NCBI GenBank assembly: GCA_037952775.1
Contig: JBANAY010000003.1
Span: 22,816,001-22,880,000 of the forward strand
Length of the DNA stretch: 64,000 bases
Source: Clonostachys chloroleuca
Taxonomy: Eukaryota > Ascomycota > Sordariomycetes > Hypocreales > Bionectriaceae
Direction: 5' to 3'
Under the pieces are notes generated by a model. The model searched no databases, had not been told where the DNA came from, and saw only the letters and a list, made by a program, of their open reading frames with translations. The position numbers were made by a program, and so were the translations under genes. Positions 6,869 to 45,734 of this stretch are shown here, piece after piece; position 1 is the first letter of the stretch; each line of letters begins with the position of its first letter.

Positions 6869-8702
6869 CTATTGATCTTCGTAAATGGTTCCCAGTTGCG
6901 TCCAAAATTCTGTTCTCTTGAACGTGGCGGCACCATCTACACCCTGGGCAAACATGCTTAGATAGATAGCAGCAGGGTCGCTTGTGTAAATAACAGTCGA
7001 CAGAGCAAATCGCTCATTTGCGTATACCTCGAGAGTATTCCCATCGGAGAAAATTCGCAATGTGAGTGGTTCAAGCACGAGCTGGTTGCCTTGTTCCTGA
7101 GTGAAAAGTGTCATCGCACCTCGTTCCTTACTCCTGTTCACATCGGAGAGCGTACTTGAGTTTGATCGTATGACGGTAATCTCCTCTTCTTGGGGCAGGA
7201 AGTTGATTGTTGTAGACGTTTTCATATGAGTTGTATGGCGAACGTGGAAGCCAACTGCCGTGCATCCTTCTTGTATCTCGATTGTCGTTTCCAACTCCCA
7301 CCGAGCGGATTTGACCGGTGAAAGATACGCTTCTGTTGTACCCGATGGCAAAGCCAGATTCTCGACTACCGTAGGGTCGCCTTTTCTGAGTTGCGAGAGC
7401 TCTGTTAAGGGACGAATACCCAGCGTCTCAATCACGTATCTCGATGACTGAGTTTCTTTAAGCGCATACACAGATGTTATCTCACTTAAGGGAGTTTTGA
7501 GCGCCTTGACTACCCCTGGTGTTCTCTGCAAGAACAACTCACGGGGTAGTGCAAGACATCCTGCCCAACCCTTGTTCTTGGCATATTTGGCTGCGAGATC
7601 ATCTTCTTTAATCCACCCCCACACGATTCGGCGGCTTCCGTTTGGGTCATAAAACGATCCCGCAGCATAGTAGCATCCATGATCCAGATATCCGTCGAAA
7701 TCAATTTTCATTGAGACACCGTCTTCGCCTTTGATCAGAGAACCACTGAACCAGAATGAATAGCTGACCGTCCTTCTCGGAACCGAATCCTGGACAGAGT
7801 CGAGATATTCCATGAGCCATGGCCTTTCATGTCCCCCTTCTGAGCCGCATATGATAAACTCTCTGCTTGAATTGGCTAGGTCATCCCGCAGAGTCATGAA
7901 GTTGCCGCACTCCCAGTTCACGCCGAAATCTGCGCTCCACTTGGACGAACGGCGGAAATTAGGAGTAGAGCTCGTTAGGACACCAATGTAGTCCCAGCTG
8001 AATAATTTATCCGGTTGTATGGCATAGAGAAATATCGCAGGCCCCTTGTCCTTGATGCCGCCAGAAATAACACCATACAGGGTGTCTTCAGTACCTCGAA
8101 GCCGGTCAAGGGACTCCCACCGGGAAAGATACGGGTCTCTCCAGCCTGTGACGGTCAAGGACTCTGGCTCCTCGGGCAGGATAGGATTTCCTTCAAACTT
8201 GTCCCACGTAGCCCCGCCATCTTTTGATACTGCAGCCGCAAGGCTTTCGCTACCCCGGATATAGGGAATTGACCAGTGGATCGGGAGGTGGCAGACTGAC
8301 GTGTAAAACAATGTGATCATTCCATCTTCTCCATGAGGTCCTGATGGTATGAAGCACCCTGTGAAGACTCCTTCTTTATCATATACCTTATCTGGAGACA
8401 GAGCCGGTGAAGTGTTCGAGCTGTGCTTCCATGTTACAAGGTCTTTGCTTGTGGCATGCCCCCATGACATGTTTCCCCACTCACAGCCTTGAGGATTCCC
8501 TGAGACGGGATGTTAGTGCTACTGTGCTCGAAATTTGAGTTATTGAAGAATACGAACATTGGTAGAATAGATGATATGTGTTAGTAATAGGATCGAATCC
8601 TGGGCCACATGGATCGTTCATCCAGCCGTGAGGTGCTATAAAGTGGAACCTAGGGCGTACGGCCTTGGAAAATTCGTCTTTCTCTATACTGGGTTGCCGC
8701 AT
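6869..8702 (-). CDS. GH32 beta-fructofuranosidase (invertase/inulinase-like), intracellular
   Basis: Two exons, 8702-8558 and 8499-6869, joined over a 58-bp intron that restores YHLFYQWNPQG; 591 aa. The family releases fructose from sucrose, inulin or fructo-oligosaccharides. All three catalytic blocks are present: WMNDPCG with nucleophile Asp30, GWRDP with Asp170 (transition-state stabiliser), and WECGNF with Glu245 (acid/base). The five-blade propeller region is followed by a C-terminal beta-sandwich (from about residue 420). No signal peptide precedes residue 20, unlike secreted invertases, so it probably works in the cytosol on imported sugar. It is convergent with the regulator (63 bp between stop codons) and divergent from the permease. 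WMNDPCG has Cys where many members have Asn. Exact substrate cannot be read from sequence. Confidence 0.93.
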
Positions 8703-17193: not shown

Positions 17194-18654
17194 CGTGATC
17201 GTCTGGAATTTTTTTCTCAAACGAAATATCGGGTGATGCTCTCACAACAAGGAGAATAAATTACTTGAAAAGACAGGATTCAGTCGCACTGGATTGGATA
17301 CACTGATGATGATAGGAATTCGTAAAGGGGTGATCGGGGATATTCATGGGCCAGATATTCTTTATATTCCAGGTGGTGGGGTGATTTTGAGCCAAGACAC
17401 GAGATTTGCTCTAGGGTCCGAGTCTCGAGATAGAGCCGCCGTGGAGTGACCGAAGAGCGGGTTCGGGGGCCTTAATCAAGAACTTTTCCTCGGAGTGAGA
17501 CGAGATAAGAAAGGTGAAAATGGTGCCACGGCAGAGCTACGTTTCAACGCCCTGTTGGTATTGCCGCACTCCAAGCTGCCCAAATTCTCGTGATTCGGAC
17601 ATCTCATCGCTACAATCATGACAGGGGCATGAGAGATTTTGTGAGGCACCTAGTGGAAGAGGTACCGTAAGGCATTTGTCCAAGTATATACAATCCGTAT
17701 CATAGCTGCTCGGAGAATCAGACTTGACATCGGGCCGCCAGACCCAGTGGAAGCACGCGGATGTGTTCCCTGGCTCGTGAAATTACGGACGACCGACAGA
17801 AACCTGTTTCGATGATCGCCAGCGACTGACGGACGCCCCTGAGCGAGCGTAGCATCGACATCGACAGCAACAGGGGCTCTATGCACAGCCAACATCCTCA
17901 GTCTAGACCCCCAGCAGAATACTGACTCATTTATGGCATGTACGTATTATTATGTTAGCCATCATCACGACAGTCGCCTAACAAGCATTCCTCCTCCCCA
18001 CCAGTTAAGCTTGTTCCAAAGTTTGTTGCCAGCCAGCTCCACAGTCATATTGGATTTAATATTATTTCGTAATTTCCTGCTATTTCAGCTTTCCTCCTTG
18101 TGTTCTAATCTTGACTGCCTGATAATTGCTTTGGCTGTCGGGTCATGTCGGCTCGTTAGCGACATCCCAGCTCGCTGATTCAGTGCTGAATTTTCCAATT
18201 GATCATTCTGCGCATCCCTGACACCTGGCGACATACCGGTAAATTATGTCGCCTGAGGTGACATACTTGATGACTGGACACGCAGCGACTGACAGGCGAA
18301 AATAATACGGAAAGTCGGTCAGCGTACCGGGATTCACCGTTAGGGGTGAAGTGAGGACTTGGCGGTGCCCTTGGGAGGGAACAATATTCTGCACTCCTTC
18401 ACTAATAATAACTGTCTGGCATCTACGGAGCCCCTATCGAGATTGACATTCCTAATGCATGGACCCTGTTTTCTTACGTTTACGGTCTGCGGATGGGAGA
18501 TGCATAAGTCACAACACGAGCGATCATCACATCACGTTACTATGGTTCCCCAATCCCAGCGATCGAAAATGTACGTTGATTGAATGCCGACAGCAAAATA
18601 ATATGTCCAAGATATATACAAGGAAAAGAACACTCCGTGCAGAGGAGTTATCGA
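17194..18654. other. Intergenic, acetate permease promoter side
   Basis: 1.46 kb with no gene supported on either strand; short frames only. Confidence 0.5.
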
Positions 18655-18782
18655 ATAAAAGAAGTAGAAAAGAGAAAAGAAAAAGGGAAAAGAAAAAATG
18701 AAAAGAAAAAGAAGAAGACGAAAAGAGAAAAGGAAAGAAAAGAAAATAGAAGAAGAAAATGGAGAAAAGGAAAGGAAAAGAC
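18655..18782 (+). repeat. Polypurine (GA-rich) tract
   Basis: About 128 bp that is almost purely A and G on the plus strand, made of irregular AAAAGAGA, AAAAGG and GAAGAAG blocks. It ends just before the stop codon of the GT2 gene, so in that transcript it would be a pyrimidine-rich 3' UTR. Such tracts can form triplex DNA. Confidence 0.8.
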
Positions 18783-28260: not shown

Positions 28261-30347
28261 CTGGGCAGGTCAATCGACACGCCAAATACGAGACAACAAA
28301 CAGTAGAGAAGAGGGTACATGCCGGGAAATTAGCCTCCTAGGCTGCGCGAAGCCCAAATGAGACCTTCATCAACATCCAGAAACCACCAACAATTCCCGG
28401 CACCAAATCACCACACCCCAGCCACCATCAACTAGACCAAATCTCTCAGGCCTCCCGGTGCGATTCACTGAATACGTGCAAGTACAGGAATACCGGAAGG
28501 TCATCACACCCCACCGAAAGTGTTGGCCCACCAGATACATTAACGTCCACGGGAGGATGTAAAAGGGCGTGGACGCCAAGGAGAAATATATATATACCAC
28601 GTGCAGAGTGGTTTCATCCGTACGGGGAATTTACTATACCTGTTAGGTTGGAAATTATAATAACGGTATAAATAGAGTCGGTAGAACGCCGAAAGACTAT
28701 AATCAAATAGAAATTTAGGAATAAGGATAAGGAGGAGATTACTTGATACTAAAGTATTTAGGTTACTATAAAGGTAATCTGTAAGGTCTAAATTAGTCAC
28801 AGAAGGCTATATTTTAGATATTCAGAAAGCTTTTATTGACTAGACTATATAAAGGAGAAATTAGATAGTATTATTAGTAGTAGGTATCTTATTTATAGCA
28901 TTTATAAGTAGAAAGGGCTATAATCGCCTACCAGAAGTAAGTATCCCCAGACTTTGTCCCAACGAATATCAAAGATGTTAATCCAAGAAACTCCGAAATT
29001 TCATAATATATTAACTCTTCTCACCGTTATCTGTCGGTTTAGACAATCAACAAAGGGTGTAGCTACGCTGTCTACGGCTAAAAGCCCCAAGAATCACATC
29101 TTTATTTTGTATAGACGCGTTGGAGTGAGTAGGGAAACAATAGGCAGACCGGTACCGGTGCATCTGGGAAGGGGCAAAGTACGCTGACTTGGGATTTGAT
29201 TGCCCTCCGCCTGTGCAAGACACTCACATGATCACGTTCCAGTGTCGTATCCAGCACCAGGTATTTCCCGACCCAGAGGCATATTGATCATATTATTTTG
29301 TTTATTTTTGTGCTACATCTTACATATGCTTAGACTTGATCTGTTCTATTAACTAATATTATATTGTATTGCTTATTCACAAGCTGCTATGTGCAAGCTC
29401 AACCGACTCACACCTCTTCTTATTGCTCATTCTGAAATGAGTGATTGTATTGCTTGTTCTTTTTGTATTTATACTGGAATGTGTACCCTTAATTATACAC
29501 TCTCCTAGTCGTGATGTTTTAACAGCACCACAGCTAGCTTCCTCGTAACATTACAGGCGACTTTTCTATATTACTCCGGCTACCTGTAACACTACAGCCG
29601 ACGTTATTGTAGTACTCAGTTGAAAGCCGGCTGGGACAGACAATAAATCAATCAATCCGCTGATAGGGCAGAGAAGGGACTTAACATAATCTTTATAAAT
29701 AAAAGTCCTAAGAGCAATAGTTATTTTAAAGAGATATACTAGATTCTAAAGACAGAGGTCAGGGGATAGCCTTTAAGATCCTAATACTCCCAGAATACGA
29801 AGATACAATAGGATCCAGTGCTTCCTGGTAGGTATGGTCGTATGTAATAGGAAGGGGAGGTGATCTGATTCATAAGTCGTCCGGGGCTTGGCTGGGAGCT
29901 GCTGGTGATGTTGCTGTTGTTGTATCTTCATCAAACCTTGTCAGCGGGGACAAGACTGGTATGAGGACCACAGGCCTCACTTTCAGGCAATGTTTCAAGT
30001 GAGAACAAGTATCATGTGTAGAAAGAAACTTCTCTAGAACGAGCATAAGACTGGGCCAACCTAAGTGTTGATAGATATCTACAATTTTATCCCCAAGCTG
30101 TGAGTTAAATGGGCCCCACCCTAATAGACTATTGCTTGTTATTAGATAGGAAGACACAAGAAAGGGAGATATGGCTAAACTACTACTCCAACACTGATTT
30201 TAATATCAACAACTATATCTAATTTCTAATAGACATGACCTGATAATCTCGGGCGGTGGCGTGGTGAAGATCAATGACAGGGTCTGAGATTTACATGACC
30301 ACGCACACCAAATTCCACATCCGTGATTGTAACTCCTTGTACTGGAT
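28261..30347. repeat. AT-rich gene-free tract with probable RIP-mutated repeat relics
   Basis: From about 28570 to 28950 and again near 29680-29800 the sequence is very rich in TA and TAG/TAA triplets, unlike its flanks. Fragments resembling a reverse transcriptase (ILDIQKAF near 28815 on the plus strand, followed by stops) hint at a LINE-like relic, weakly. A pair of related strings (CGTAACATTACAGGCGAC and CTGTAACACTACAGCCGAC) lies near 29546-29600. No intact gene. Confidence 0.45.
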
Positions 30348-40809: not shown

Positions 40810-40814
40810 ATTAT
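40810..40814. repeat. Target-site duplication, left copy (ATTAT)
   Basis: ATTAT directly before the left LTR; the same five bases follow the right LTR at 44537-44541. Five-base duplications are typical of LTR-retrotransposon integrase. Confidence 0.85.
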
Positions 40815-40993
40815 TGTCGGGATAGCTAGTTAGTCAGGGCTCTTGCGATCACGTGGCCTAACCACGTGACCGCTCCAGCCTCTATTTAACCCCGGGCCAC
40901 GGGCCCGTAGGCCAGCTAGCTAGCTAGATAAGAACATACACAGAATACAACAGAACCTATCCAACAGCATATGCTAAGGAAGTCCTTCCAATA
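40815..40993 (+). repeat. Left LTR (179 bp)
   Basis: Matches 44358-44536 at every position except the second-last base (T here, C there). It contains an inverted pair of CACGTG E-boxes (TCACGTGG and CCACGTGA, about 40849-40867), a TATA-like CTATTTAA about 15 bp downstream, and a run of TAGC repeats. These could form the element's promoter. Confidence 0.9.
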
Positions 40994-41284
40994 CTGATCA
41001 GTGCTGCAAGGCAGCTACAGATCAGCTAAGAAGAAGAGATAGGATCTCCGAAATACTCAGGAAAGTGCAGTCCTTCTGTGAGTATTAATCCTATGCTACA
41101 GGCTAGAAGAAGTGAGTAGAATAACGACGCTGTTATCTTTCTGCAGCTTCAACTAGTTGCTTTAGAGACTGCTTGTTCCTCCAACGACGCTGTTGGCACT
41201 GGAAACACCTCTAAAGAGCGTCATATCACGCAGACAACGCTGCCCCTTTCAGTAGGCTAGGCAGCTAGTCGTGACACAGCTGTC

Positions 41285-43690
41285 TCAACGGACAGCTGTA
41301 TCGCGAGCCCACGAAGGAGCTGTCCGTACGAAGCTACGGCTTCGGACAGCTATTTCGTAGGAATCTGACGAGCCCGTCTGTGTGAGCCTTCCGGCCTGGA
41401 CAGCCGTATCGTCAGAGCCCGAAAAGCGCGTCTGTTCAAACCTTCCGGTTTGGACAGCTTCATCGCAAATCCCTGACCTTCCTGTCCTGACGAGCCTGCG
41501 GCTATGGACAGCTAGGTCAGCCAAACCCGAAGAATGCGTCTGTTCCAACCTGTATGGTTGGACAGCCCTACCGCAAGCCCGCGATCCCTCTGTCCGTACG
41601 AGCTTGTGGCTACAGACAGACGTATCGCGAAGACCCGACCGCTCTGTCCCGACGAGCCTGCGGCTACGGACAGCTGGATCGTACACCTTCGAAGAGCCTG
41701 TCTAACCCACCCTTCCTGCGTTAGACAGCTATCTCTAGCTAGAGGCAGCTAGAGGGAGTAACAAGGAAGAGGGGCTATTAGAGATCTAACTAGCTACCTA
41801 ATAGCTAGTTAAATAGCCCTACGGACCCTCTGGAAACCACCTTTGGGGACGGCTAACAGGAGCGACTGTTACATAGCTAGAGAGTATCTAGCAGTATGTA
41901 TGCCATTCAAGAGCTATCCCGCAACCCAAACGCCTGGCCAGGTAGCTACCTATCCACACGGTCTCTCTCGGTGGATAGGATCACGAAGAAACTGTCCGTA
42001 CGAGCCCGCGGCTACGGACAGCGATAACACTCGAACACGAAGGCCCTGTCTGCCTAGCCCGTCCCTCGCAGATACCAGCTTCGTGCCCATACGAAAAGCC
42101 TGTCTGACCTGCTTTCCTTCGTCAGACAGCCGTATCCCGAAGACCCGACCTCTCTGTCCTAACGAACCTACGACCACAGACAGCCGAGTCAGTCAACTCT
42201 GAAAAGCGTGTCCGTCTGAGCCCTCGAGCCCGGACAGCCTGACCGCCCATCTACGAATAGCCCGTCCGTACGAGCCCTACGAGAAGACGGCTATTTCAAT
42301 CTCAACTGAATGAACCCGACCAACTTGATCAATCAACCCGGACCTTTCGTTCCCTTTCATGATCACAAGCCCGGGAACACGGAGGACCTGATTGACCCCG
42401 AAACTGCCCCTGATCACGAAAATCCCTCAAGATGAGAGTTATATCTGACCGCTCCGACCCCTGTCAGACAGCCAATTCCTCTGCCGCGATAAGCCTGTCC
42501 GTACGAGCCTGTGGCTACGGACAACCGTATCGCAAGCCCCTGACCTACCTGTCTTGGCTAGCCCCTGACGACAGACAGCTAGATCAGGGATCCCTGACGA
42601 TCCCGTCCATCCAAGCCGACCCCACAGACAGCCAATTGGTCTGCAGCCGATAATCCTGTCTGGCCGGATTGAATACAACAGACACCCCTATCGTCAACCC
42701 ACGAAGCCCCTGTCCACACAAGCCGTTAGAAGTGGACAGCTTCACCGCTGAACCTGAAGACCCTGTCCGTGCTAGCCGAGAGCCACGGACAGCCATTTCG
42801 TCTTCCTTTGAAAGTGTTGTCTGGGGGCTAGCTAAGAGCCACAGACAGCTACTTCGCTGAACCTGATAACTCTGTCCGTGCTAGTCAAGAACTACGGACA
42901 GCTACATCATCTTCCCTTGAAGACCCTGTCCGTGCTAGTTGAGAACCACGGACAGCCTCTTCGTCTGACCCTGACGACCTTGTCTAATTGACCCGACTTC
43001 CTTGGACAGCCACATCGTCTTCCCTTGATGAATGCGTCCATCCGGACCGGCCAGCCCGGATGAACCCGTCGTCAAACAACTGCTTCTAACAGCAGCGAAA
43101 TCGTCCCTGCCGACACGATCGGACGAACCCGTCAATTTTAAACTAGCCCGGCTAGCTAGTTGTCTTTTCAACAGCCTTCGTTGAAGACCCTCGGTAGCTA
43201 ACACAGCCAATTTGCTAGCGAGTCTGACCAACCGAAGCCGGCCCGACCGATCCAACGAGACACACCTCTCGTGGCAACAGCTAGGTAACCTAGCTAGCTG
43301 TCTTGCCGTGTCTAATACAACCGAAAATGCCGGACCCTTCGGACCTGCTGACAGCAGCCTCTCCTTCCCTCTCTTGGACAGCTGTATCGCAAACCCACGA
43401 TCCCTCTGTCCACCTCTCCAGACCTCCTTGGACAGCCGTATCGCAAGCACGCGATAACCCCGTCCAACCTCCCTTTCCCTCGCGGACAGCCTAGTCAGTC
43501 GGGCCCGACTGACCTGTCTGCTATCTCATAATAAAGAAAAGACTGCCTGTGGTAGTTATCAGTCTACTTTCTCTTTCCCTCTTGGACAGCTGCGTCATGA
43601 CTCCGCGATAGCTCTGTCCGAGATTCCCTTCCCTCGTGGACGCCTTCGTCAGCCGAACCTGACGACCCCGTCCGCAACAGACAGCTTCTC
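41285..43690. repeat. Array of about 54-bp dual-hairpin modules (with gaps), further copies at 44165-44330
   Basis: About 35 imperfect modules. Each has arm C[T/C]GTC[C/T], an 18-nt loop, arm [G/A]GACAG, then a C and a 24-nt spacer that is itself a smaller dyad. Examples of arm A are 41992-42000 with 42013-42021 (CTGTCCGTA/TACGGACAG), 42763-42771 with 42784-42792 (CTGTCCGTG/CACGGACAG), 41698-41706 with 41720-41728 (CTGTCTAAC/GTTAGACAG) and 42100-42108 with 42121-42129 (CTGTCTGAC/GTCAGACAG). Spacer dyads include TATCG/CGATA (43439-43456), TCGTCAG/CTGACGA (43646-43665) and the perfect palindrome 43494-43513. Arms covary between modules. Blocks at 41740-41985, 42300-42450 and 43080-43360 are poor in modules. 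Confidence 0.88.
43533..43551 (+). repeat. Internal copy of the polypurine-tract sequence
   Basis: AAAGAAAAGACTGCCTGTG here repeats exactly at 44341-44359, where it forms the end of the interior and the first bases of the right LTR. The internal copy interrupts a hairpin module. Confidence 0.8.
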
Positions 43691-43739
43691 GGGCTTTGAA
43701 CCTAGCCCTGATCACTACAGCCCGTATCCTCAGGAATAC

Positions 43740-44150
43740 GATCAAGCCTCCGTCAACAGCTTCAACAGCTATGACCTGACGGACCTAGCGTTGATCGTAT
43801 TAGCCTAGATTCTCGAGCATCCGATCAAGCCTCCGTCAACGCCTTCAAAGATGACCGGTCTGACTAACGCCGCGTTGATCGCATTAGCCGCGATCCGCGA
43901 AGATAGGATCAGACGGCCTTGAAGATGACTAGTCTGACGGACCTAGCATTGATCGTGCGAGCCGAGACTCGCGAGAATACGATCACAACCCGGTCAACGG
44001 CTTCGAGAGCTCTCAGCCGGATAGACCGTAGGTTGATCGTATTAGCCGCTGTTCACGTGAATGCAATCAGGACCCAGTTAGCAGCTTCGCGAGCTGCCGG
44101 CTTGAGCGACCTATTGTTGATCGTATTAGCAGCTATTCTCAAGAGGTGGC
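43740..44150. repeat. Second dyad array, about five units of 74-84 bp
   Basis: Units run from GATCA to TTGATC and the linker GTATTAGCC. The first unit has GATCAA (43740-43745) facing TTGATC (43791-43796), with CCGTC (43750-43754) facing GACGG (43778-43782) inside. The fourth unit has CGGTC facing GACCG. This repeat family differs in sequence from the 54-bp modules but shares the nested-palindrome design. Confidence 0.75.
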
Positions 44151-44340
44151 TACGATGATGACAGCTACGGAAACCAGCTGCCGGACAGCTGCTTCAAGCC
44201 CCTATGAAAGACCTGTCTGTAACTCCCTTCCCTCTTGGACACCTTAGTCAACTAGACCCGACCTTCCTGTCTGTAATAGCCTTCCCTCCTAGACAGCCCG
44301 GTCAACTGGGCCTGACTAACTTGTCCGTGTTTCGCTTCAT

Positions 44341-44357
44341 AAAGAAAAGACTGCCTG
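44341..44357 (+). other. Polypurine tract of the LTR element
   Basis: AAAGAAAAGACTGCCTG immediately before the right LTR, the position used to prime plus-strand DNA in LTR elements. Only its first nine bases are pure purine. Confidence 0.5.
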
Positions 44358-44536
44358 TGTCGGGATAGCTAGTTAGTCAGGGCTCTTGCGATCACGTGGC
44401 CTAACCACGTGACCGCTCCAGCCTCTATTTAACCCCGGGCCACGGGCCCGTAGGCCAGCTAGCTAGCTAGATAAGAACATACACAGAATACAACAGAACC
44501 TATCCAACAGCATATGCTAAGGAAGTCCTTCCAACA
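44358..44536 (+). repeat. Right LTR (179 bp)
   Basis: Partner of the left LTR, ending CCAACA, followed by the ATTAT duplication at 44537-44541. Confidence 0.9.
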
Positions 44537-45734
44537 ATTATAATATTATCCTCTATATCATCAACAGGGATTGACCCCCTAGGACTATAATCAAAGTTCC
44601 AGTAAGTATACAACATTTCGAAAAACTTTAGGTCAAGGCCCCCTTTAAGCTATTGCATCCGGGAATAGCAGCAAGGCTGGTGGATACCTCCGACTGGGAT
44701 CTTCGCTCCGATCCATAGGCTATAAATCTTACAAATCAGCTCATACCGGATAAATTCCTTGAAAATTCATCATTGTTCATCAATACTTAAGATTTTAAGG
44801 TCAAAAAATATATTCATCAGTAAGCTCACATTAGGAGAATCCTTGTGAGAAGTCGGGATAGGCCTAACCTAGGAATTGCCAATAGGACCGGCAAGTATCT
44901 GTACAGTTTGCTTTACCGAGGTAATCCTCTATATACAGCAAGATACGGTTATAGAGTGCGAGGAGGGATCTCCATCCCTCGCGGTTATTAGGTCTCAGAA
45001 AAGGATTTAGAAGCTGTTTAGCTCCCCAGGTATTAAGGTGTTTTTCTACAGAGGTAACTCGCTCCGCTAGCGTGCATTTAGTAACATCTGCCTCTGGGAA
45101 AAGTATAACTACCATAAAATCCTGAATAAGAGAATCATCGTCAAGGAGGATATTCTGGGTATACTTGCGTTCAATATAATCAACATAATAGGAATACATA
45201 TTAAACATAGCAGGAGAGGCTCTAGATAGCGAGAGACATAGGTCAAGATCTTTAGTCAAGACCAGGATCTTGAGTTAATCTCGATCTCGACAGGAAGCTT
45301 CTGAAAAGGATCCATTGCTTGAGATTTGAGTGTTTCAATGAAGGCAGCGATGTACGATCGACTGATTCGACTGACGGCGAAGGTAACGATGTGTGACACT
45401 TGACTTGTCTGCAATGGAGCGACGAAGACAGCGATTTGCGAAATAGAGGGATTGTCGAAATGGACTTGAACTGTGCGGTTCATTCAGGTATGTTCGCAGC
45501 GGCCGGGGATGGCGGCCTTCAAATAGATGGAAGCAGCATTTTAAGGTTCATAAAAGTAGTCACGCCGACGAAAGAGTCATTACACCGGGCATAGCTATTA
45601 TTGGTGTTGAACCTTATGTACAGCCGGGCGCAAGTCTTGTAGCCGGGCAAAAAGGCTGAAGTTTAATGTGCTGTGATACTGGGTATGGTGTCAAGTTGTT
45701 TAATTCTTGGTGTTAAGGAATTTCCCCTTTTTTT

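Follow-up and report, generated by a model that had tools for sequence, protein, structure and literature searches.

The window, a stretch of 64,000 nucleotides of the Clonostachys chloroleuca genome (C3:22816001–22880000), harbors at positions 40815–44536 a long terminal repeat (LTR) retrotransposon of 3,722 bp, whose interior holds an array of short hairpin modules. A protein encoded nearby shares 95% identity with one from Clonostachys byssicola, in keeping with a Clonostachys-like host. The two halves of a module fold with each other better than with the halves of other modules, and selection on the structure of the array is supported, albeit not proven. We tentatively favor the explanation of a large LTR retrotransposon, non-autonomous, that maintains its RNA as a series of hairpins, with a constant motif that perhaps binds a protein. 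The parts of the element outside the array are as follows (RIP, repeat-induced point mutation).

40810–40814, no strand: left target-site duplication ATTAT, identical to 44537–44541
40815–40993, plus strand: 5′ LTR of 179 bp with the TATA-like sequence TATTTAA inside, identical to the 3′ LTR at 178 of 179 positions
40994–41284, plus strand: leader, the first ~230 nt of which are common to a second, heavily RIP-mutated LTR family (genomic matches, alignment)
44339–44357, plus strand: polypurine-tract-like sequence directly upstream of the 3′ LTR, recognized by position and composition, with a 17/18-nt match to the RIP-mutated family
44358–44536, plus strand: 3′ LTR of 179 bp, with one difference from the 5′ LTR (LTR comparison)
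44537–44541, no strand: right target-site duplication ATTAT, identical to the left copy

A search of the host genome (59.4 Mb on four contigs) for other copies, which the first-pass annotation of the window had proposed, revealed at least 20 near-full matches to the LTR and one partial match. At least three complete elements, namely the window copy, L022 and L023, account for six of the near-full matches, and each of the three possesses two LTRs and a target-site duplication. The remaining 14 were assigned as single LTRs, because a search for the array region recovered nothing beyond the three elements, and 1.5 kb to either side of these LTRs contained no match to it. L022 is flanked by the duplication TATAC and carries two LTR substitutions, while L023 is flanked by ATTTC and carries none, its 5′ LTR starting with TC instead of TG. 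Target duplications of their own and 0–2 LTR substitutions indicate that the element moved as a unit, and recently. No TGG start of a primer-binding site follows the 5′ LTR, and self-priming finds no support, as no stretch of at least 8 nt that could pair with the LTR was detected. One scan of viral contigs with a 27-nt LTR pattern gave no match.

The element had been called coding-free, which holds for the frames analyzed: the six longest of its 44 stop-to-stop frames gave no Pfam match at E≤0.1. Long frames occur on both strands as a result of the few stops in the 54-bp unit. Together with a module spacing that in places departs from multiples of three (53, 55 and 107 bp) and with 1-nt insertions and deletions by which the copies differ among themselves, this led to the rejection of a coding interior. 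Likewise, no Rfam family reached its gathering threshold within the window, the element containing one weak, unrelated match (E 0.43), and no hammerhead ribozyme was detected in window or element.

The modules were collected by a mechanical dyad scan, which used GTC and GACAG as search criteria and returned 36 candidates. The 30 modules analyzed comprise 27 of these dyads, three of which (41432, 41540 and 42212) were shifted to the common register, and three modules (42046, 42602 and 43034) added by spacing; the dyads at 41826, 41959, 43015, 43101, 43359, 43514, 43567, 43750 and 43991 were dropped. An earlier table of 33 modules had also contained 43352, 43514 and 43560, which were removed after viewing. 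Two types can be distinguished, a division made after the per-module results had been seen. Type I (41308–43075) consists of 25 modules of ~54 bp, each a hairpin in two tiers, with CTGTCY...RGACAG and, in addition, an outer stem. Type II (43376–44326) consists of eight units, picked by hand, in the other phase, GGACAG...CTGTCC. Only 1 of 435 module pairs exceeds 80% identity. Fold z-scores in the list refer to dinucleotide shuffles.

41308–41740, plus strand: type I hairpin modules 1–8 (dyad scan, half-swap folding; 41285–41740, z −8.3 on plus, −4.5 on minus)
41741–41979, plus strand: interruption with other hairpins, lacking the 54-bp module (scan; 41741–41990, z −2.5 on plus)
41980–42302, plus strand: type I hairpin modules 9–14 (41991–42300, z −4.1 on plus)
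42303–42482, plus strand: interruption without excess structure (42301–42480, z −0.1 on plus, −1.3 on minus)
42483–43075, plus strand: type I hairpin modules 15–25 (42481–43060, z −7.4 on plus, −5.8 on minus)
43376–43673, plus strand: type II units 1–5, GGACAG...TCR...YGA...CTGTCC, with mostly pyrimidine-rich linkers (43351–43680, z −7.0 on plus, −3.8 on minus)
43531–43551, plus strand: exact internal copy (21 nt) of the polypurine-tract region, identical to 44339–44359
43693–44160, plus strand: second repeat of ~84-bp units with dyads of their own, arm matching weak or none
44183–44326, plus strand: type II units 6–8, weak (44161–44340, z −0.9 on plus)

The array of ~54-bp dyad modules described in the first-pass annotation is therefore real, yet it is not uniform, being interrupted at 41741–41979, 42303–42482, 43076–43350 and 43693–44160. 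The 21-nt copy of the polypurine-tract region sits in a 78-bp repeat that is otherwise 77% identical, and could be a central polypurine tract.

In the three main stretches the array folds far better than its dinucleotide shuffles, as listed above, with z-scores of −0.7 to −1.9 and +0.3 in three control stretches; 42301–42480 and 44161–44340 show no clear excess. To separate covariation from a shared consensus, the 5′ half of each module was folded with the 3′ half of every other module. This half-swap folding is free of register and was used instead of the covariation in fixed register, which is weak: there the gain amounts to 0.2–0.4 bp per stem segment (P 0.02–0.07), with none for the deeper loop. 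Over the 30 modules, folding with the own half is favored by 3.4 kcal/mol over folding with a foreign one on the plus strand (z −6.5; minus strand, z −5.6), and the effect holds among diverged modules, with z −4.3 below 60% identity (13–16 modules kept) and −3.0 below 55% (8–11 kept). It is strongest in type I, with z −7.5 on plus, where the own half is better in 22 of 25 modules, and −6.7 on minus (20/25). Frame shifts of the type I modules bring z close to 0 in five of seven cases; shifts by ±7 nt, which still overlap the hairpin, retain −4.4 and −3.4. Divided into parts, the outer flanks yield z −4.2 and the main and inner arms −3.6.

In each region, one phase carries the matching. Type I spacers, the wrong phase, show none (z +0.8 on plus, +1.6 on minus), while in type II the spacer phase matches (z −3.0 on plus in 7 of 8 units; −2.3 on minus in 5 of 8) and the main dyads of five units give −0.2 on plus and −1.6 on minus. 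As a general unit the spacer dyad finds no support (z −0.8 on plus across 30 spacers) and was discarded for 41308–43075, and the assumption of two dyads in each module had to be replaced by a main dyad that matches in 41308–43075 and a spacer dyad that matches in 43376–44326. In the 84-bp repeat, tested with five units for each hairpin, one hairpin gives z +0.9, the other −1.6 on plus and −2.0 on minus. Some type I and type II units likewise lack arm matching.

Relatedness of the modules was taken into account by a phylogeny-aware null, a simplified substitute for R-scape in which substitutions were redistributed along a tree of the 25 type I modules built with FastTree. The observed paired fraction (0.749 versus 0.673±0.030) and mean minimum free energy (−17.3 versus −12.5±1.2) were reached in none of 300 replicates each, and the covariation score gave P 0.01, an excess in these three measures over a null of the kind that the first-pass annotation had asked for. 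Column shuffles of the 30 modules point in the same direction for the covariation score (0.243 versus 0.180±0.017) and for cells changed on both sides (50 versus 34.3), neither value being reached in 500 shuffles; standard pairs occupy 74.6% of pair cells versus 70.1%, a partial effect. Change is not, as had been stated, always on both arms. At its last pair, the main stem has CG in 14, UA in 7, UG in 5 and another combination in 4 of the 30 modules, and at five of the outer and inner positions 12–19 of the 30 modules fail to pair.

Embedded in these stems is a motif that hardly varies. The type I columns GA, GTC, GACAGC and TC are 84–100% constant, and three loop columns reach 80%, compared with an average of 53% in variable columns. 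For GTC and GACAG this constancy is partly built in, as both were scan criteria; outside these criteria, GA is constant at 96%, the C after GACAG at 92% and TC at 84–96%. The simplest reading is a recognition motif held in the stem, whose outer and neighboring pairs are freer to change together.

Related arrays elsewhere in the genome offer a natural comparison. With one mismatch allowed, the spacer pattern has at least 107 genome matches, versus one for the reversed pattern. The matches listed outside the three elements occupy eight sites, of which three share one array, and these sites fall into six regions (L067–L072). Related array stretches were recognized by model and BLAST in L067 and L069 and by BLAST to the others in L068 and L072; L070 is weak by model and has short tandem copies of its own, and L071 gave no related array by either method. 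None of the five array loci showed a match to the element LTR in the pieces fetched. Six outside array stretches (200–430 nt) fold with z-scores between +1.8 and −2.1 on either strand, in contrast to −5.0 to −7.4 on plus and −3.0 to −6.9 on minus in four chosen stretches of element copies (351–371 nt); the comparison is no clean control, some outside stretches being shorter. At these other loci, members of the sequence family are still present, but the fold is largely absent. Taken together, half-swap folding, frame shifts, diverged modules, the phylogeny-aware null and the outside arrays support the earlier proposal of a selected structure without proving it, and strict compensation in every module is not borne out.

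The order of LTR, leader and polypurine tract determines which way the RNA intermediate runs, and plus-strand RNA is the more likely acting form, because the element cannot move without this RNA. In line with this, most array stretches have a larger local fold z on plus, hairpins form better on plus in two of three blocks, and unpaired plus-strand bases of the array are poor in G (12% G, 37% C), while those of the leader are balanced. Wobble counts, types of mismatch and pairing in context gave conflicting outcomes, and a strand call on these grounds was discarded.

In the mechanism that we propose, a plus-strand RNA would have the ordinary terminal parts, namely LTR, leader and polypurine tract, and ~33 hairpins of ~36–54 nt would occupy the place of gag-pol. 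Selection would maintain the hairpins by acting on the full-length RNA intermediate, and the proteins would be supplied by another LTR element, presumably one whose machinery reads leader and polypurine tract. Least certain is the role of the constant motif, which, held in the stem, might be a repeated binding site providing many weak grips on Gag or on a host RNA-binding protein. Such a bound structural protein could stabilize, protect and package the untranslated RNA.

A number of observations weigh against this explanation, in addition to the built-in share of motif constancy. In the column shuffles, double-change pairs (9 versus 8.8) and further pair types (26 versus 26.6) show no excess, and these two flat measures of five are the ones least inflated by module relatedness; the coordinated change of pairs claimed earlier is therefore borne out by score and both-side cells and not by these. 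RNAalifold predicts only six pairs for the 30-module alignment, with a covariation term of −0.17 and without the outer stem, and loop sides alone show no half-swap matching (z −0.2). Compared with the window copy, L023 has 36 differences in the array. A cluster of 27 lies within 42885–42958 and is best read as one replaced module; all three pairs changed on both sides fall into this segment. L022 differs at 31 array positions and additionally carries one more module of 54 nt and an insertion of 98 nt; there is no compensatory change among the 31 substitutions. Out of 19 differences at paired sites, 13 break the pair on plus, 10 of them resulting in an A-C mismatch, which is a wobble on minus, and 3 otherwise; 2 lead to G-U and 4 convert G-U into a Watson-Crick pair. 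The L022 differences are thus better tolerated on minus, the block 42301–43080 forms hairpins better on minus (0.53 versus 0.33), and stem mismatches (3 G-T versus 6 A-C) show no G-U preference. Finally, the array was not found by model in a copy of the RIP-mutated family (L058/L059), where RIP could have erased it, and gag-pol is not established in this family, a candidate helper only.

Destabilization by the copy differences was nevertheless lower than for random changes of the same type, on plus (L023, −0.22 versus 0.54±0.32; L022, 0.10 versus 0.90±0.34) as well as on minus (L022, −0.31 versus 0.37±0.24; L023, 0.15 versus 0.49±0.35, here only slightly). RIP is not indicated as the source of the differences, since transitions in CpA/TpA context number 3/25 and 8/34; the dinucleotide indices of the element (1.28 and 0.95) lie on the RIP side.

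The absence of compensatory substitutions in L022 would be expected if the arms were homogenized by self-templating, in which reverse transcription switches template between arms and rewrites one from the other, modules spreading by slippage. The gain or exchange of whole modules between copies (the 54-nt and 98-nt insertions and the replaced module) and arm matching on both strands, as a DNA-level process predicts, fit as well. We nevertheless regard this process as a rather unlikely explanation, because it accounts neither for the 84–96% constancy of GA, TC and the C after GACAG against 53% in variable columns nor for the strand-specific shortage of G at unpaired positions.

A function at the DNA level appears unlikely as well. 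Inverted half-sites TGTC/GACA with flanking GA/TC could bind a protein or form cruciforms, the symmetry reflecting binding of a dimer; the motif is indeed symmetric, recurs in arrays at other loci and sits in stems whose mismatches lack an RNA-strand bias. However, matching extends to the stretches adjacent to the motif, in the outer flanks as in the main and inner arms though not in the loop sides, and the composition of loops and linkers is strand-asymmetric, both of which count against it.

An improbable variant places the cause in genome defense. Under RIP, tandem binding hairpins would persist only if the modules are dissimilar, hence covariation might be a way to avoid homology, with 1 of 435 pairs above 80% identity. 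The array would then be a repeat that keeps its fold while compensatory change diversifies its sequence, evading RIP and offering many binding structures without tandem homology.

Least probable of all is a passive filler, a captured palindromic minisatellite in slow decay and without present function: similar arrays at five other loci and unmatched arms in the 84-bp repeat and in some units would agree with it, yet independent decay of the arms of a duplicated palindrome predicts equal folding of own and foreign halves (observed z −7.5), the phylogeny-aware null speaks against it, and the element copies keep a structure that the outside stretches hardly possess.

Non-coding LTR elements must hold in their RNA alone whatever permits copying by the proteins of another element. 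Where dozens of diverged hairpins surround a short motif, a candidate binding site is indicated by the motif itself, and positions that need only pairing are marked by the covarying flanks. If the explanation favored here is true, the element would display selection on RNA shape within a gene-free transposon.

Comparison with known non-coding LTR elements places the element closest to large retrotransposon derivatives (LARDs) of plants, such as Sukkula. As far as the accessible part of the source describes them (PMC7215508), these are LTR elements without protein-coding capacity which depend on another element and whose core domain specifies a well-conserved RNA secondary structure. The window element fits these features as far as tested: the six longest frames contain no gag or pol by Pfam, and the 3.4-kb interior has a conserved RNA structure, the conservation being across modules within one genome and the covariation partial. 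Different from LARDs, it is fungal and 3.7 kb long, its core is built as an array of short modules that occur in two phases and whose arms covary in part, and such an array is absent from the portion of the LARD description available (PMC7215508). The same portion lists terminal-repeat retrotransposons in miniature (TRIMs) and Cassandra as non-coding LTR elements with a predicted conserved RNA fold (PMC7215508). TRIMs have almost no internal domain, unlike the 3.4-kb interior here, and Cassandra carries 5S rRNA sequence, for which the window gave no Rfam match at the gathering threshold. Retrozymes are non-autonomous RNA elements bounded by LTRs and carry hammerhead ribozymes; the window element shares the former properties and lacks a detectable hammerhead. 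Plants are therefore already known to possess non-coding LTR elements whose RNA structure is conserved, going by the part of the source at hand (PMC7215508), which narrows the earlier claim of novelty; no description of such elements with an array of covarying hairpins was seen, and no fungal element of this build was seen in the open-access literature, covered by listings and the beginnings of abstracts.

The leader connects the element to a possible helper. Its first ~230 nt have 26 further genomic matches at 68–79% identity, with differences that by eye are mostly C/T or G/A, as RIP would leave. These were taken as the RIP-mutated family, of which one copy was read to its end.

C4:11320900–11332900: RIP-mutated copy L058+L059, LTRs near 774–962 and 8037–8225 of the joined stretch

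This is an LTR element of 7.45 kb with 28% GC and strong RIP indices, and its 17/18-nt match just upstream of the 3′ LTR has an E-value of 0.21 by itself. The array motif was not found by pattern in L028–L053 (1.5 kb on each side), from which RIP could have erased the array. Two RVT_1 matches (C4:11356122 and C3:22366147) lie within 7.5 kb downstream of leader matches, at differing distances. Matches by tblastn to the gag-pol of L060 occur near leader matches, apparently outside the stretch that aligns to the RIP-mutated family, and a protease-like motif read by eye in L031 lies past the aligned part and was not counted. L060 is one of seven gypsy copies with equal scores, which were set aside as helper on the example of L060, as no DNA match to the element was obtained at E≤1. 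Judged by shared sequence, the RIP-mutated family would thus be the better candidate. The seven gypsy-type copies, located on C1 and C3, have an open frame of 1290 aa, and L060 is not RIP-mutated among the many RIP-mutated elements of the genome.

Two hairpins make the leader a more conventional candidate than the array for a packaging or dimer signal.

41121–41136, plus strand: leader hairpin ATAAC-GACGCT-GTTAT (sequence, fold); formation of the G-U pair would leave ACGC as the loop
41181–41196, plus strand: leader hairpin CCAAC-GACGCT-GTTGG, same loop and different stem (sequence, fold)

Gammaretroviral leaders carry a pair of GACG-loop hairpins, according to the part of the source consulted (PMC5874298). 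The likeness lies in two leader hairpins with one common loop sequence containing GACG, and might serve as a lead only: there the loops are GACG tetraloops, whereas the fungal element has GACGCT, 6 nt long, or ACGC if G-U closes the loop, and has it in the leader, not in the array. Both hairpins are covered by the alignment to the RIP-mutated family, and AGCGTC at 41217–41222 is complementary to the GACGCT of both. The GC-normal L046 (C1:1102681) starts with the same leader at 79–80% identity, and by eye the arms of its leader hairpin appear to change in concert with those of the element. Elsewhere in the window, a GA-rich low-complexity tract occupies 18653–18781, and a 41-bp tandem repeat is present in two copies at 29537–29617.

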